From: a virus
IMG/VR virus record: IMGVR_UViG_3300025133_000679
Coordinates: 1-21,753 of that record
Strand: one strand, 5' to 3'
Length of the DNA: 21,753 bases
The translations under genes were made by a program, and so were the position numbers. The notes below the pieces were generated by a model. The model was given only the letters and a program-made list of their open reading frames with translations, was not told the DNA's origin and made no database searches. How positions within the stretch are numbered: position 1 is the first letter of the stretch; every line of letters begins with the position of its first letter. Shown here piece after piece: positions 1-5,100 of the stretch.

Positions 1-99
1 GTTATAAATAAAGCAGAAGATGAAGATTTTAAAGGGATTTGGAAACATAAATTATCAGAACTGTTAAGAAAATCTAAACATAATATAATATTACATTAA
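1..99 (+). CDS. C-terminal end of an unidentified gene
   Basis: An open frame runs from the window edge to a TAA at 97-99 and gives 32 residues ending in KHNIILH. The start lies outside the window. The piece is lysine-rich and helical in composition, and too short to assign. It reads in the same direction as the DNA-metabolism genes that follow, with 10 bases before the next ATG, so it is probably the preceding gene of the same replication operon. I cannot name the product. Confidence 0.6.
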   Translation, partial: VINKAEDEDFKGIWKHKLSELLRKSKHNIILH

Positions 100-109
100 G
101 GAAATATAA

Positions 110-913
110 ATGGAACTAGAAACTAGAATTTTTGCTGAGGGCACATTAACTTTTGATGAACCTAGTCATAAGTATCAATTTATAAAAAATGACGGAGAAA
201 TTATAGATGTGCGATCTGTTACTTCGCATTTTAGCATACTAGGAAGTTTTAATATTGGTGCTATGGCATCTCGAAAAGCATTTAGAACTACTTTTATGGA
301 AGAAATAGAACTTAATAAACAGTATTCATGGCAATATAAAAAAGATGCTGAATCTTTTATTAAAGATATAAGTAAAAAATCAGCTGATGTCTGGACTAAA
401 TCGGCAGAGAGAGGAACAGCAGTACACCTGGTACTTGAACGATATGCTAAAGGAATTAAACCAGTATATGACACAGATGAAAGCATTGCTAAAATGCAGA
501 AAGCTGGCATTGATTGGTTTGATGCTAATGTAGAAAAAGTCATATCTAGTGAGGTATTGGTTTATAATAAAGAACATAATTATAGTGGTAAATATGACCT
601 AGAATGTATTTTAAATGACGGCAGAGGGCGAGTATTACTAGATTGGAAAACTGGCTCTATAGCTAATTATAGACGATTACCGGATATGTCTAGTAAACAA
701 AATTTGCAGCTATTGGCCTATATGGAGTGTTTACTAGAGCAAGAAGGGGGGAATCCTTTTAATAGAATGGTGGTTATCATAGACCGAGATAGTGGCGAGA
801 TAATGACCAGAACATATGGAACAGAAAAATACCAACGAGATAAAAGTATTTTCTTACAGATTATTAATTTAAATAATTATTTCCATGATTATGCAGATGA
901 ATGGAAACAATAA
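110..913 (+). CDS. RecB/Cas4-like PD-(D/E)XK nuclease
   Basis: A probable DNA exonuclease or endonuclease of the PD-(D/E)XK superfamily, 267 aa. The family's signature residues appear in order: a GTAVH motif with His106, Glu148 in SSEVLVYN, Asp163 in GKYDLE, the catalytic DWK at 178-180, and a QLLAY motif at 200-204. The His...Glu...Asp...DxK...QxxxY order is typical of the RecB C-terminal nuclease and Cas4 group, which process DNA ends during recombination or replication. The start is supported by AAGGA at 98-102. It is followed by an SSB and a resolvase-like nuclease, which suits a phage recombination/replication role. There is no Cas context and no visible Cys cluster, so a true Cas4 is unlikely. 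The exact substrate is unknown. Confidence 0.8.
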   Translation: MELETRIFAEGTLTFDEPSHKYQFIKNDGEIIDVRSVTSHFSILGSFNIGAMASRKAFRTTFMEEIELNKQYSWQYKKDAESFIKDISKKSADVWTKSAERGTAVHLVLERYAKGIKPVYDTDESIAKMQKAGIDWFDANVEKVISSEVLVYNKEHNYSGKYDLECILNDGRGRVLLDWKTGSIANYRRLPDMSSKQNLQLLAYMECLLEQEGGNPFNRMVVIIDRDSGEIMTRTYGTEKYQRDKSIFLQIINLNNYFHDYADEWKQ

Positions 914-915
914 AC

Positions 916-968
916 GAGTGAGGTTTTATTTTTATGTAGAGGGGTTAGCTCACTCCTTTCCTCTCTAC
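916..968 (+). promoter_or_regulatory. Interleaved inverted repeats in the SSB leader (possible pseudoknot or switch)
   Basis: Two perfect or near-perfect inverted repeats cross each other between the nuclease gene and the SSB gene. The first pairs GAGTGAG (916-922) with CTCACTC (949-955). The second pairs GTAGAGGGG (936-944) with CCTCTCTAC (960-968), nine pairs including one G-U. Because one arm of each lies inside the other's loop, they can form an H-type pseudoknot or two mutually exclusive hairpins. The element ends 7 bases before the AAGGAG at 976-981 that serves the SSB start. No T-run follows, so it does not look like a terminator. The loop crossing the first stem would be only 4 bases, which may be tight. 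A regulatory role is inferred. Confidence 0.55.
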
Positions 969-987
969 ACCAAATAAGGAGTTAAAT

Positions 988-1524
988 ATGCAGATTACAA
1001 TTAAAGAAATAATAGCACCACAGCCGCCAAATGAAGAAAAAGGGTGGAAGGGTACTAAAAATTATAAGATAGTAACGACAGACGGAAAAAAATTACTATG
1101 TAATCCAGATAAAAGACCTAGCGATTTAGATGTTGGCATGGTGGTTGATATAGAAACATGGGCAGATCAATTTAATAATCTCTATATTAACAGATTTAAA
1201 GTGGTTAATGACGATAATATAGCACCAAGCCCACAACCGACACCAACTGCTCCAACACCTCAACCTCAAGCACCTACTACTAATTATGTAGAAGAAGGAA
1301 CTGCTGGTGGGCATGATGTTAGTGAATTAGTAGGTAGAGATTGGGCGATTATACTACAAGCATGTGTAAACCGAGATGCAACACTTACTGCTGACCAAAA
1401 ACTTAAATTTATATTAATGAATTATAGTAGAGGTTCAGTAGGAGCATTTAAACATCTTCAACAGACAGAAGATTTAGATAATACTGCTATAAGTGAGATG
1501 CCAGATGACAAAATTCCATTCTAA
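988..1524 (+). CDS. ssb: Single-stranded DNA-binding protein
   Basis: Probably coats single-stranded DNA during replication and recombination and recruits partner enzymes through its tail. The 178-residue product has a beta-rich N-terminal part of about 75 residues, consistent with an OB fold. A proline/threonine/glutamine-rich linker follows (about 78-98), then a short further segment and an acidic C-terminus ending in DDKIPF. That ending is the classical SSB tip (DDxIPF), which binds partner proteins. A strong AAGGAG at 976-981 sits 6 bases before the ATG. The neighbours are two recombination-type nucleases. The N-terminal domain is not closely like E. coli SSB by eye, and residues about 99-165 add an uncharacterised segment. 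The tip and linker make the assignment fairly firm. Translation may be controlled by the structured leader just upstream. Confidence 0.75.
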   Translation: MQITIKEIIAPQPPNEEKGWKGTKNYKIVTTDGKKLLCNPDKRPSDLDVGMVVDIETWADQFNNLYINRFKVVNDDNIAPSPQPTPTAPTPQPQAPTTNYVEEGTAGGHDVSELVGRDWAIILQACVNRDATLTADQKLKFILMNYSRGSVGAFKHLQQTEDLDNTAISEMPDDKIPF

Positions 1525-1636
1525 AGCAAAGTTTATAGAGTGTAAAAAATGCAACACGAAAGATATATATTATGTGTTTAGTAGGTTGTATTGTTGGTAT
1601 TGCAAACAAAGATATGAGGATAAAAAATGGTTTTAA
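1505..1636 (+). CDS. Small zinc-ribbon protein (hidden short gene)
   Basis: A 43-residue frame starts at ATG 1505-1507 inside the end of the SSB gene and stops at TAA 1634-1636, inside the start of the resolvase-like gene. It exactly fills a gap that otherwise has no gene. The product has two cysteine pairs, CKKC at residues 13-16 and CWYC at 30-33, separated by 13 residues. This is the pattern of a minimal four-cysteine zinc ribbon. It is basic and aromatic-rich, and could bind nucleic acid or a partner enzyme. It reads in a different frame from both neighbours, overlapping them by 20 and 10 bases. The ribosome site is weak, so translation may be coupled to the SSB gene. It could be a chance frame, but the paired cysteines and exact fit argue for a gene. 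Confidence 0.55.
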   Translation: MTKFHSKAKFIECKKCNTKDIYYVFSRLYCWYCKQRYEDKKWF

Positions 1637-2010
1637 GTGCTAGAAGTGCCAAAGCTAAAGGTTCTAAATTTGAGAAAAAGATTGTTGATACAATAAATAA
1701 AGATAGTGGTTGGGAAGCTAGAAAACAGCCTGGCAGCGGCATATTTAGAGATTTTCCTAATGATGTCTATGTTGTATCACCAACTGGGGAAAAGTATATT
1801 ATTGAATGTAAGAAATGGAAACATGGTTGGCGAACTGGGGATAAAGCCAAGCAGGGTGCAGATTTTTTATTAGTAGAACGAGATCATGGTAGTCCTAAGT
1901 GCTACCTTGAATATGATATGCTTTTAAGTTTAATGAAAACAATAACAGACTTACATCAACAAGTAGAACAATTAAAGGGGAGTAAAGATAATGATACAGA
2001 AACAAAATGA
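1627..2010 (+). CDS. Holliday-junction-resolvase-like PD-(D/E)XK endonuclease
   Basis: A 127-residue nuclease-fold protein that probably cleaves branched DNA. It begins with a basic KGSKFEKKIVD segment (Glu16), followed by a glycine/serine loop (PGSG, 35-38), Asp46 in NDVYVV, and the catalytic ExK at Glu60-Lys62 in IIECKKW. This arrangement of Glu, Asp and ExK after a G-S-x-F/E helix is that of archaeal Hjc-type and related phage resolvases. The C-terminal 30 residues look like a short coiled coil. The start has GAGGA at 1616-1620, six bases before the ATG. It overlaps the zinc-ribbon gene by 10 bases and the HTH gene by 20. Resolving recombination or replication intermediates fits the SSB, RecB-like and primase-helicase neighbours. 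The specific substrate is inferred. Confidence 0.7.
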   Translation: MVLSARSAKAKGSKFEKKIVDTINKDSGWEARKQPGSGIFRDFPNDVYVVSPTGEKYIIECKKWKHGWRTGDKAKQGADFLLVERDHGSPKCYLEYDMLLSLMKTITDLHQQVEQLKGSKDNDTETK

Positions 2011-2209
2011 TATGATTTTAGAACATTTAAAAGAACATGGTAAGATTGATCCTAAACAAGCCTATGAAAACTTTGGTTGTATGCGATTATCGGCAAGAAT
2101 ATTTGATTTAAGAGGTGATGATATTCACATTGAAACAACTTATAAAATGGTTAAGAATAAATTTGGTAAAAAAGTAAAGGTTGCTGAATATAAGTTACTA
2201 GGGGATTGA
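1991..2209 (+). CDS. Small helix-turn-helix protein
   Basis: A 72-residue protein with a winged-helix-like layout. The first helix contains ILEHLKEHGKI, followed by DPKQAYENFG and a recognition-helix-like MRLSARIFDLRG (about 31-42). A beta-hairpin-like tail carries the basic stretch KNKFGKKVKV. This pattern resembles the small phage helix-turn-helix domain family (Pfam HTH_39 type) often found among replication genes. It probably binds DNA as a regulator or replication accessory, but no target can be read from the window. A purine-rich ribosome site (AAGGGGAG, about 1975-1982) lies 8 bases before the ATG. The gene starts inside the end of the nuclease gene and ends one base before the next ATG. 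Confidence 0.65.
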   Translation: MIQKQNDMILEHLKEHGKIDPKQAYENFGCMRLSARIFDLRGDDIHIETTYKMVKNKFGKKVKVAEYKLLGD

Positions 2210-2210
2210 T

Positions 2211-3416
2211 ATGAATAAATTTTTAGATGCTATTATACATAGTTATAAAAAACCAGAGATGGCTTTTCATTTTTGTGGTTCAGAAACAATAAATTACAAT
2301 GTTTTAGATGTTTTTAATCAAAAAGAAGAAAATTGGAAAATGCTTTTTACTCGTTCTTTACTAAAAAGAGATAAAAATTATTTATCAGGGATAAGAAGTC
2401 AATTAAGAAATACGCATAAATTTTCTATTTCTCATGAGTGGATAAATAAAAATTGTCCAAAAAGATTTTATGTTACTGATATTAAAATACCTTATGATGA
2501 TACATGGATAGAAGTAAAAGATAACAACAATGAATTTTTATCTGGTTTTCATATTAAAAAAACTTACAATTCGCAAGTACCAAAAGATAATGATTTTTTA
2601 TACATGATTACACCTTATATACCAACATCATATATCAAAGAGTTTAGTTATATTGGTACTAGAAAAAATCCAATTAAAGTAATAGCTCCAATGTATTCTT
2701 TTTTATTTAGTAATAAAATGTCTTTAATAGATTTAAAATTAAAGCCTAAAGGAATTGACCAAACTGATAGATTTTTATGGGGAAAACATGATTTAGATTT
2801 AAAAAATTTACAGATAAATGACCATATTAGAATAGTATCTAGTGATTTTGGTTCTAAATGGGACAATTTTACTCATTTAGACATATTAGCAAATGATAAA
2901 ACACAATTTACTGTATCAGATACTGCTCATTCATGGTTAGCAATTTTAGAACAAAGAGAAGCTGATGAAAAAATAAAACCTTTTGAAATAAACGATAAAG
3001 ATAAATCAATCGATATAATTGCGAATAAAATAGAATATAAATTAAATCAAATTCAAGAAGAATTGTTTAATTTAAATATAAAATATTTACGAGGTATTAT
3101 TAAAAATTTGTTTATACTTTTATCAGCTATGAGTAATGAAAAAACTGTTAAAGAGATTAATAATAGTAAAGGTTCTAAAAGACATAATAGTAATAAACAA
3201 AATTATTACGAATTTAAAACTTTAACAATAAATCCTAATGTTGTTAATAAATATATAAATACTCCTATTAATATTAATCATCATAAAAATAGATTTCATA
3301 GTGTAAGAGGGCATTTACGCACCTATAAAAATGGTAGGAAAGTATGGATTAAAAATTATGATAGAGGTAATGAAGAATTAGGAATAATAAAGAAAGAATA
3401 TTTAGTAAAAAACTAG
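2211..3416 (+). CDS. Phage protein of unknown function with C-terminal VRGH motif
   Basis: A 401-residue protein that I cannot assign to a family. The N-terminal two-thirds are mixed in character, rich in aromatic and charged residues, with no signal peptide or membrane segment. Residues about 265-312 look helical. The C-terminal 40 residues carry a compact basic motif, HSVRGHLRTY then GRKVWIKNYDRG (about 363-386). I know this His/Arg/Gly plus Trp pattern from the ends of other phage proteins, but no function is certain. The gene is noticeably AT-richer and more Asn/Lys-rich than its neighbours by eye, which could mean faster drift or separate acquisition. It lies between the HTH gene (one base) and the primase zinc-domain gene (nine bases), within the replication operon. 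It might act on DNA, but that is only context. Confidence 0.7.
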   Translation: MNKFLDAIIHSYKKPEMAFHFCGSETINYNVLDVFNQKEENWKMLFTRSLLKRDKNYLSGIRSQLRNTHKFSISHEWINKNCPKRFYVTDIKIPYDDTWIEVKDNNNEFLSGFHIKKTYNSQVPKDNDFLYMITPYIPTSYIKEFSYIGTRKNPIKVIAPMYSFLFSNKMSLIDLKLKPKGIDQTDRFLWGKHDLDLKNLQINDHIRIVSSDFGSKWDNFTHLDILANDKTQFTVSDTAHSWLAILEQREADEKIKPFEINDKDKSIDIIANKIEYKLNQIQEELFNLNIKYLRGIIKNLFILLSAMSNEKTVKEINNSKGSKRHNSNKQNYYEFKTLTINPNVVNKYINTPININHHKNRFHSVRGHLRTYKNGRKVWIKNYDRGNEELGIIKKEYLVKN

Positions 3417-3425
3417 GGGATTAAT

Positions 3426-3707
3426 GTGAGTCTTGATAGAAAATTTGTATTAGGATTAAAAAGAAGTGGCAAGTATTCTTGCCCTAATTGTCAACACGAA
3501 AGAACGAAGAATAAACGAGATACACCATTATCAGTTACTTTACAATCTGATTCTGTTGTATATTTTTGTCATCATTGCAACATAAAAGGAGTGGAATACT
3601 ATGAAGAAACTAACAAACAATGTTATCCAATTCGCAGAAAAGAGGGGGATAAGCCAAAAAACACTAACAGAAATGAAGTGCGAAAGCGGTTCGGCACAGT
3701 TTGGTGA
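3426..3707 (+). CDS. Separately encoded primase zinc-binding domain
   Basis: This frame encodes the four-cysteine zinc domain that T7-type primases use to recognise template sequence. CPNC lies at residues 19-22 and CHHC at 48-51, on a beta-rich scaffold of about 55 residues. The start is GTG at 3426, because the ATG two bases earlier runs straight into TGA; AGGGGA at 3415-3420 supports it. The frame continues to TGA at 3705-3707, overlapping the primase-helicase gene by 107 bases in another frame. Residues after about 58 are basic and look like by-product of that overlap. In T7 gp4 this domain is fused to the rest of the enzyme; here it would act as a separate subunit, or be joined by a +1 ribosomal shift. 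Confidence 0.7.
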   Translation: MSLDRKFVLGLKRSGKYSCPNCQHERTKNKRDTPLSVTLQSDSVVYFCHHCNIKGVEYYEETNKQCYPIRRKEGDKPKNTNRNEVRKRFGTVW

Positions 3708-5100
3708 TAGAAAACTCGAATCATTAGTCTTTGGCTATTATAATAGCAAAGGCGAAAGAGTTAATTATAAAGCAAGAGCTATACAAGAAAAAGCATTTAA
3801 ACAACAGACTGGTGGAAAACAACAATTCTATAATTTAGGTAATGTTTTAAATTCTAAAAACCTTGATACTGTATATATTACAGAAGGAGAAATGGATTTA
3901 TGTTCTTTAATAGAGTCTGGTTTTTCTATTAATAGTGTTTTAAGTGTACCAGGTGGTGCTCCAGCTACTCCTACGGAAGAAGCTCACAATACTAAAAGAT
4001 ACCAATATGTATTAGACGCATTAGCGGAAGGGTTAGATAAAGCAAATTGTTTTGTGTTATTGACCGATAATGATGATCCAGGCCGTAACCTACGAAGTGA
4101 TTTAGCATCTATTTTTGGACATGGTCGGTGTAAGTTTGTGGAATTTTCTAGTGATGTTAAAGATGTTAATGAATATATGCAGAAAGTAGGAAAAGACCAA
4201 TTACAATGGTTGATTAATGAAGAATTGCAACCATTTCCGATTGAAGGTGTATATTCATTAGATGAAATACCAGAACCCTCGCCACCTAAATTATGGAGTC
4301 CTTGTTTTGATGGGTGGGGAAATAAAGTTATGATAGGGGGTGGCATGGTAAGTGTTATGACTGGCTATCCTGGTCATGGTAAAACCACTTTTGCTCAACA
4401 ATTATGGGCAAACATAGCAAAAGAATATAAAATTCAGATAGGAATGTTTTCTGGAGAAACAAGAGTTAAACCTTATGTAAGAAGAAATTTACGAACATTT
4501 TATCATGGCAAACAAGAACGAGATATGTCGGAAGAAGAATTAAATTCTGCTGATTATTGGATAAGAGATACTTTTCATTTTCTTAATCACCCTAGAAATG
4601 CCCCAGAATTTGATTGGGTATGTGATAAAATAAAAGATATGAAAGCACGATTCGGTATTGAAGCATTTATGTTTGATCCTTTTAATAAAATAGAAATACC
4701 AGATATGACGAGAGGATCAGAAACAAATTGGATAGGCAAATGTTTAGATGACTTAACAACATTGGCAAAGGTGTTAGATATTCACATAATGATTTTGGCT
4801 CACCCATCAAAGCCAAGTGAGTTAAAGGTACATAATGCAGCACCTACGGCTTATAGTATAGCAGGTTCGGCTCATTGGTTTAATAAACCAGATCACATCT
4901 TTAGTTTATGGAGAGAAAAGTTTGAAGATGAAGAAGGTAATAGAACAACAGACGCAAAACTTATTGTTTGCAAATGCCGATATGAAGAATTAGGGTATCC
5001 GAGAGTTATGCCTATAAAAATGAATTTGGATAATGGTTGCTTTGAAAGTGTTGATAAGCAACAAGCCTATCAGTCAAATCGCAAAGATATATACGGATAA
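3601..5100 (+). CDS. T7 gp4-like primase-helicase (TOPRIM plus RecA-type helicase, no zinc domain)
   Basis: A 499-residue replicative enzyme that unwinds DNA and probably makes RNA primers. The linker IQFAEKRGIS (9-18) begins the primase part. TOPRIM residues follow: TEGEMD at 94-99 (catalytic Glu95), TDNDDPG at 155-161 and KDVNEY at 187-192. The helicase has Walker A GYPGHGKT at 255-262, Glu286 in FSGET, a Walker B-like MFDP at 357-360, and ILAHP at 398-402. Length and order match the T7 gp4 short form (4B), which lacks the zinc domain. AAGGAG at 3586-3591, nine bases upstream, gives this gene its own ribosome site. The zinc domain is encoded just upstream in another frame (3426-3707), so both pieces are present but split. 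Confidence 0.92.
   Translation: MKKLTNNVIQFAEKRGISQKTLTEMKCESGSAQFGDRKLESLVFGYYNSKGERVNYKARAIQEKAFKQQTGGKQQFYNLGNVLNSKNLDTVYITEGEMDLCSLIESGFSINSVLSVPGGAPATPTEEAHNTKRYQYVLDALAEGLDKANCFVLLTDNDDPGRNLRSDLASIFGHGRCKFVEFSSDVKDVNEYMQKVGKDQLQWLINEELQPFPIEGVYSLDEIPEPSPPKLWSPCFDGWGNKVMIGGGMVSVMTGYPGHGKTTFAQQLWANIAKEYKIQIGMFSGETRVKPYVRRNLRTFYHGKQERDMSEEELNSADYWIRDTFHFLNHPRNAPEFDWVCDKIKDMKARFGIEAFMFDPFNKIEIPDMTRGSETNWIGKCLDDLTTLAKVLDIHIMILAHPSKPSELKVHNAAPTAYSIAGSAHWFNKPDHIFSLWREKFEDEEGNRTTDAKLIVCKCRYEELGYPRVMPIKMNLDNGCFESVDKQQAYQSNRKDIYG

Follow-up and report, generated by a model that had tools for sequence, protein, structure and literature searches.

The leader of the SSB-like gene in the viral DNA analyzed here almost certainly folds into a real RNA pseudoknot, as judged by comparison with related sequences. 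Our full explanation, to which we assign a probability of about 0.5 and which leans in part on analogy, is that this conserved H-type pseudoknot controls SSB translation, most likely via SSB autoregulation. The window, i.e., the whole stretch of 21,753 nucleotides under study (IMG/VR record IMGVR_UViG_3300025133_000679), has a 74-nt gap between the exonuclease stop codon and the SSB ATG at position 988. Both helices lie in this gap and cross each other in the order a-b-a'-b', with loops L1, L2 and L3 of 12, 4 and 4 nt, respectively. The features of the locus are as follows.

110-913, + strand: PD-(D/E)XK exonuclease gene, the 5' neighbor (Pfam PF12705, PHROG 298)
911-913, + strand: exonuclease stop codon; the S1 5' strand begins 2 nt further on
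916-922, + strand: S1 5' strand GAGUGAG, forming 7 pairs, all Watson-Crick, with CUCACUC at 949-955
923-934, + strand: L1, 12 nt, U/A-rich; its final A precedes S2 in 13/13 leaders
935-944, + strand: S2 5' strand UGUAGAGGGG, pairing with 960-969, with strong covariation across 12 leaders
945-959, + strand: S2 loop UUAGCUCACUCCUUU, including the S1 3' strand (949-955) and the anti-SD-like ACUCCUU (952-958)
960-969, + strand: S2 3' strand CCUCUCUACA, forming 10 pairs with UGUAGAGGGG, one of them G-U
970-987, + strand: conserved single-stranded leader composed of CCAAAU, the SD AAGGAGU (976-982) and UAAAU; 17-22 nt across leaders
988-1524, + strand: SSB-like gene, 178 aa, with an OB-like N-domain, a flexible linker and a tail ending in DDKIPF

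The earlier note on this DNA had described crossing inverted repeats of 7 and 9 pairs in the leader. The crossing and the 7 pairs of S1 were confirmed, while S2 was found to have 10 pairs, not 9. The note had also described the leader as the sole gap in a packed operon, which holds true for positions 110-5100 if the next gap is filled by a possible 43-aa zinc-ribbon-like ORF (1506-1636) that contains two CxxC pairs and overlaps the SSB end. Elsewhere in the window, the primase zinc-finger part (3426-3707) and the Toprim/helicase part (3601-5100) are encoded in different frames that overlap by 107 bases, and PHROG 239 matches 37-107 of the former ORF and 118-606 of the latter. This split with overlap is likewise present in the relatives L040 and L013 and is a candidate for a programmed frameshift or a T7 gp4A/4B-like arrangement.

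When both strands of the 21.7-kb window were scanned by stacking energy, the combination of S1 and S2 was the top-ranked H-type pseudoknot (-31.9), and the second-ranked one, within 1.2 kcal of it, combined S2 with a pairing between the S2 loop and the SD (935-982; -30.7). None of 300 dinucleotide shuffles of the window leader yielded an equally good H-type pseudoknot. The pseudoknot beat 300/300 shuffles in 9 of 11 leaders (i.e., the window and 8 of 10 relatives); that of L009 was outdone by 4/300 shuffles, and in L040 the homologous knot was not the top choice of a simple ungapped scan. The minimum free energy of region 880-1010 was not unusual (z -0.88) because nested folding cannot represent a knot, and plain minimum-free-energy folding was set aside as uninformative for a knot.

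Relatives were collected from uncultured-virus contigs with the SSB, helicase and resolvase-like proteins and the leader pattern as queries, which gave 13 distinct leaders (window, L003, L006, L008, L009, L010, L011, L040, L013, L074, L082, L095, and L097). Pattern searches showed that the motif was confined to SSB leaders, chance matches apart; matches of a looser pattern in viral contigs were also due to chance save those in SSB leaders, and L040 was gained in this way. The S1 5' strand is absent from L010 because of a scaffold join inside its leader. We noticed that the 10 N of this join (L164, G001:C1:8300-9300, ~118-127, inside the SSB leader of L010's record) are flanked by two different S2 types, one of them a window-type arm, which indicates a polymorphic leader. 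MAFFT alignment of whole leaders misaligned the S2 arms and was dropped; covariation was therefore counted on arm-only rows of 12 leaders that were hand-anchored on the flanking AUG and CACC, both of which are conserved. Hand anchoring biases these counts towards structure, a bias that is addressed by shuffle, swap and slide controls.

In the outer 7 pairs of S2 across the 12 leaders, 98.8% of cells were paired, compared to 66.2% when the 3' letters were shuffled, and 32 cells were altered on both sides. The S2 covariation was 1.009 vs. 0.269 after shuffling, a value that 0 of 500 shuffles reached (12 leaders). Sliding the S2 partners by 1-3 columns lowered the paired fraction to 33-55%, and swapping S2 arms among leaders lowered it to 49%, with 0/10,000 permutations matching the real value. 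The S2 helices of 11 leaders comprise 106 Watson-Crick pairs, 11 G-U pairs and 1 mismatch; these G-U pairs on the + strand indicate RNA rather than DNA pairing. In five lineages, S1 is made of other sequences that again pair. Its forms are GAGUGAG/CUCACUC (window), GAGUGGG/CUCACUC and GAGUGAA/UUCACUC, and further forms in the relatives are AAGGAGUG/CACUCCUU, CAACAAGGA/UCCUUGUUG, AAGGAGC/GCUCCUU, and UGGAGCAAC/GUUGCUCCA.

The possible pseudoknot raised in the earlier note is thus borne out by the shuffles, the ranking within the window and the compensatory change. The covariation analysis that it had suggested revealed both helices to be kept with strong compensatory change, and the outcome that would have spoken against the structure, arms without compensating changes in the relatives, is clearly not what was observed for either S2 or S1. 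We consider both helices and their spacing to be established by this comparison, by which the pseudoknot is judged to be real and selected as RNA. The 13 leaders with their swapped helices also provide a ready-made natural series of compensatory mutations. In L095 (2415-2484) and its relatives, the S2 loop carries an additional small hairpin, CUACgcaauGUAG, and CAAC is an alternative partner of the S1 3' strand in this clade. One leader is common to L095 and L101, though their SSBs are only 64% identical, so the leader is not strictly tied to SSB type.

The distance from the S2 end to the SSB start codon is 17-22 nt in 13/13 leaders. In L003, L006, L011, L040 and L013, the exonuclease gene still includes the S1 5' strand at its end, and in the remaining leaders this strand is past the exonuclease stop or overlaps it; a ribosome terminating on the exonuclease gene would be expected to cover it. 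In L074 (1557-1585), the exonuclease frame stops early and the usual ending KEW...Q* is not in frame with it, yet the bases of this ending still make S1. S2 itself changes quickly. Between the window and L003, the SSB gene is 98.9% identical and the leader following S2 is identical at 18/18 positions, but the S2 arms agree in only about half of their letters. Compared with L003 and L006, the arms of S2 (935-944/960-969) have been replaced pairwise between near-identical phages, much faster than the flanks. The pace of this turnover is itself striking; it may reflect neutral drift in a helix that matters only for its pairing, strain-to-strain exchange, or diversifying selection. The upstream genes of L003 (2166-2942) and L006 encode another exonuclease type beside a window-type leader and SSB, forming a mosaic junction at the leader.

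An OB-like domain combined with an acidic tail is the usual plan of SSBs. The protein encoded downstream of the leader had no match among Pfam or PHROG families. AlphaFold2 models of nine relatives have a five-stranded N-terminal domain (pLDDT ~80), for which the best PDB matches were all OB folds, i.e., IF1, a cold-shock protein with dT7, and Teb1 OB-A, at weak significance (E ~0.01-0.1). The tail is acidic, and its final F is found in all ten aligned relatives. Given this agreement of the modeled domain and the acidic, F-ending tail with the SSB plan, the assignment of the 178-aa product as SSB-like is well supported, if not proven. Searches of phage records, T4-like ones included, gave no match for the three SSB proteins queried or for positions 1-3000 of the window, and genome-contig searches with the SSB gave none either. 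No Rfam family, including the cis-regulatory families of riboswitches and r-protein leaders, matched the leader at its covariance-model threshold.

Given that the knot is located at a fixed distance from the start of an SSB-like gene, the element probably controls SSB translation. The S2 hairpin, whose sequence is freely variable, would present a loop that pairs back to the strand at the exonuclease gene end to form S1. The knot would then end 17-22 nt 5' of the SSB start codon, where the upstream boundary of a bound 30S subunit would be expected from the textbook footprint, and the pseudoknot would set the rate of SSB translation. By analogy, excess SSB may bind the knot and the U/A-rich single strands, spread across the short open ribosome site and repress its own synthesis; single-stranded DNA would draw SSB away and repression would end. 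The idea that SSB itself is the regulator is more tentative than translational control as such, and such autoregulation is best regarded as putative. Several points weigh against this explanation: with an L3 of 0-4 nt against an S1 of 7-9 bp, the knot cannot be of the simple coaxially stacked type, the leader is not bound strictly to SSB type, its open part is shorter than the T4 operator requires, and the OB-fold matches are weak.

The mutually exclusive hairpins also suggested earlier could work as a bistable switch, in which S2 would be a fixed scaffold and its loop would pair either upstream (S1, with the SD free; ON) or with the SD (ACUCCUU 952-958 with AAGGAGU 976-982; OFF), the balance being tipped by a protein or by ribosomes finishing the exonuclease gene. 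The second rank of the loop-SD pseudoknot in the window agrees with this reading, as do loop-SD pairings at roughly -8 to -11 kcal/mol in 10/11 leaders, including L013 and L082 with their differing loops, and the exonuclease stop codon that is always at the S1 5' strand. The loop can thus indeed pair with the SD, but 7 of 28 other ribosome sites of the window pair with it at least equally well (own -9.0, best -13.7). Such generic anti-SD complementarity may be incidental, and this lack of specificity led us to downgrade the switch. The loop-SD pairing is also weak in L074 (-4.7) and L095 (-6.5), and S1 is much stronger than it in L011, L074 and L082. We therefore regard the switch as rather unlikely. 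Also unlikely is a constitutive element that acts without regulation, by protecting the mRNA, by insulating the translation of SSB from that of the exonuclease gene or coupling the two, or as a roadblock. Retention of the structure although no ligand-like sequence core is conserved, and the overlap of the upstream gene end by an S1 strand, would suit such an element, whereas its restriction to SSB genes and its exact distance from the start codon would not.

The AUG that precedes S2 in 13/13 leaders (934 in the window) might start a short leader ORF that controls SSB through translational coupling. The ORFs, however, are 1, 2, 3, 6, 9, 13, 15, 19, 21 or 27 codons long, their peptides are not conserved across lineages and an SD is often absent; the conservation of the AUG is explained by its UG, which makes the outer S2 pairs, and this reading is very improbable. 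Less credible still is an inverted repeat acting at the DNA level, as a recombination or replication site, promoter or terminator. The exchange of exonuclease types beside conserved leaders (L003 and L006) does imply breakpoints nearby, but the one-strand G-U pairs, the crossed arrangement and the constant distance to the start codon are inconsistent with a DNA element, and searches for terminators and promoters gave no match within the leader. We accordingly set aside a leader ORF, a terminator and a promoter as explanations.

A bolder version of SSB control by the pseudoknot, which we consider quite unlikely, is that of a hitherto undescribed family of leader RNAs in phages. Here, an SSB that is not related to T4 gp32 would control its own translation by means of an independently evolved pseudoknot, whose loop would pair either with a strand supplied by the preceding gene's end or with the SD of SSB itself. 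With two exclusive partners for the loop, SSB output would also sense ribosome traffic on the exonuclease gene.

Among known systems, the preQ1 and SAM/SAH riboswitches place an H-type pseudoknot close to the SD or across it (PMC11625349, PMC7367207), an arrangement that the alternative loop-SD fold resembles; in contrast to them, the leader has fully variable helix sequences, no conserved ligand-pocket sequence and no Rfam match. Ribosomal protein S15 (rpsO) controls translation of its own gene via an mRNA pseudoknot (PMC3014915), a likeness in the pseudoknot within the mRNA that involves a different gene and no shared sequence. The precedent for SSB autoregulation via a leader pseudoknot comes from T4 and RB69 (PMC3014915, PMC535899), where gp32 of T4 binds the pseudoknot and then extends across the open ribosome site (PMC3014915). 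As in gene 32, a pseudoknot is found here in an SSB gene leader, 5' of the ribosome site and followed by an SSB gene (with a weak OB match). The 5' strand reaches into the preceding reading frame in both cases, that of segG in T4 (PMC535899) and that of the exonuclease in the relatives, and the T4/T2/RB69 operators are divergent in sequence with the fold retained (PMC535899). The T4 gene 32 knot is, however, a compact coaxial one of ~28 nt followed by an open leader of >40 nt with UUAAA repeats (PMC535899, PMC3014915), whereas here the knot is ~54 nt with longer helices (7-9 bp and 9-14 bp), and the window leader has a single UUAAA without repeats. The open leader past the knot is ~18 nt (17-22) vs. 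~45 nt in T4, and the T4 operator needs a longer one than the 18 nt present here. Given the absence of a long open leader and that no homology to T4 gene 32 or its leader was detected, the leader is not classed as a gene 32-type member; the gene 32-type operator is its closest functional analogue. According to PMC535899, SSBs other than T4-like ones are not known to autoregulate via a leader pseudoknot. If the pseudoknot described here is controlled by SSB, it would represent a second, independent origin of the autoregulation long known in T4-like phages.
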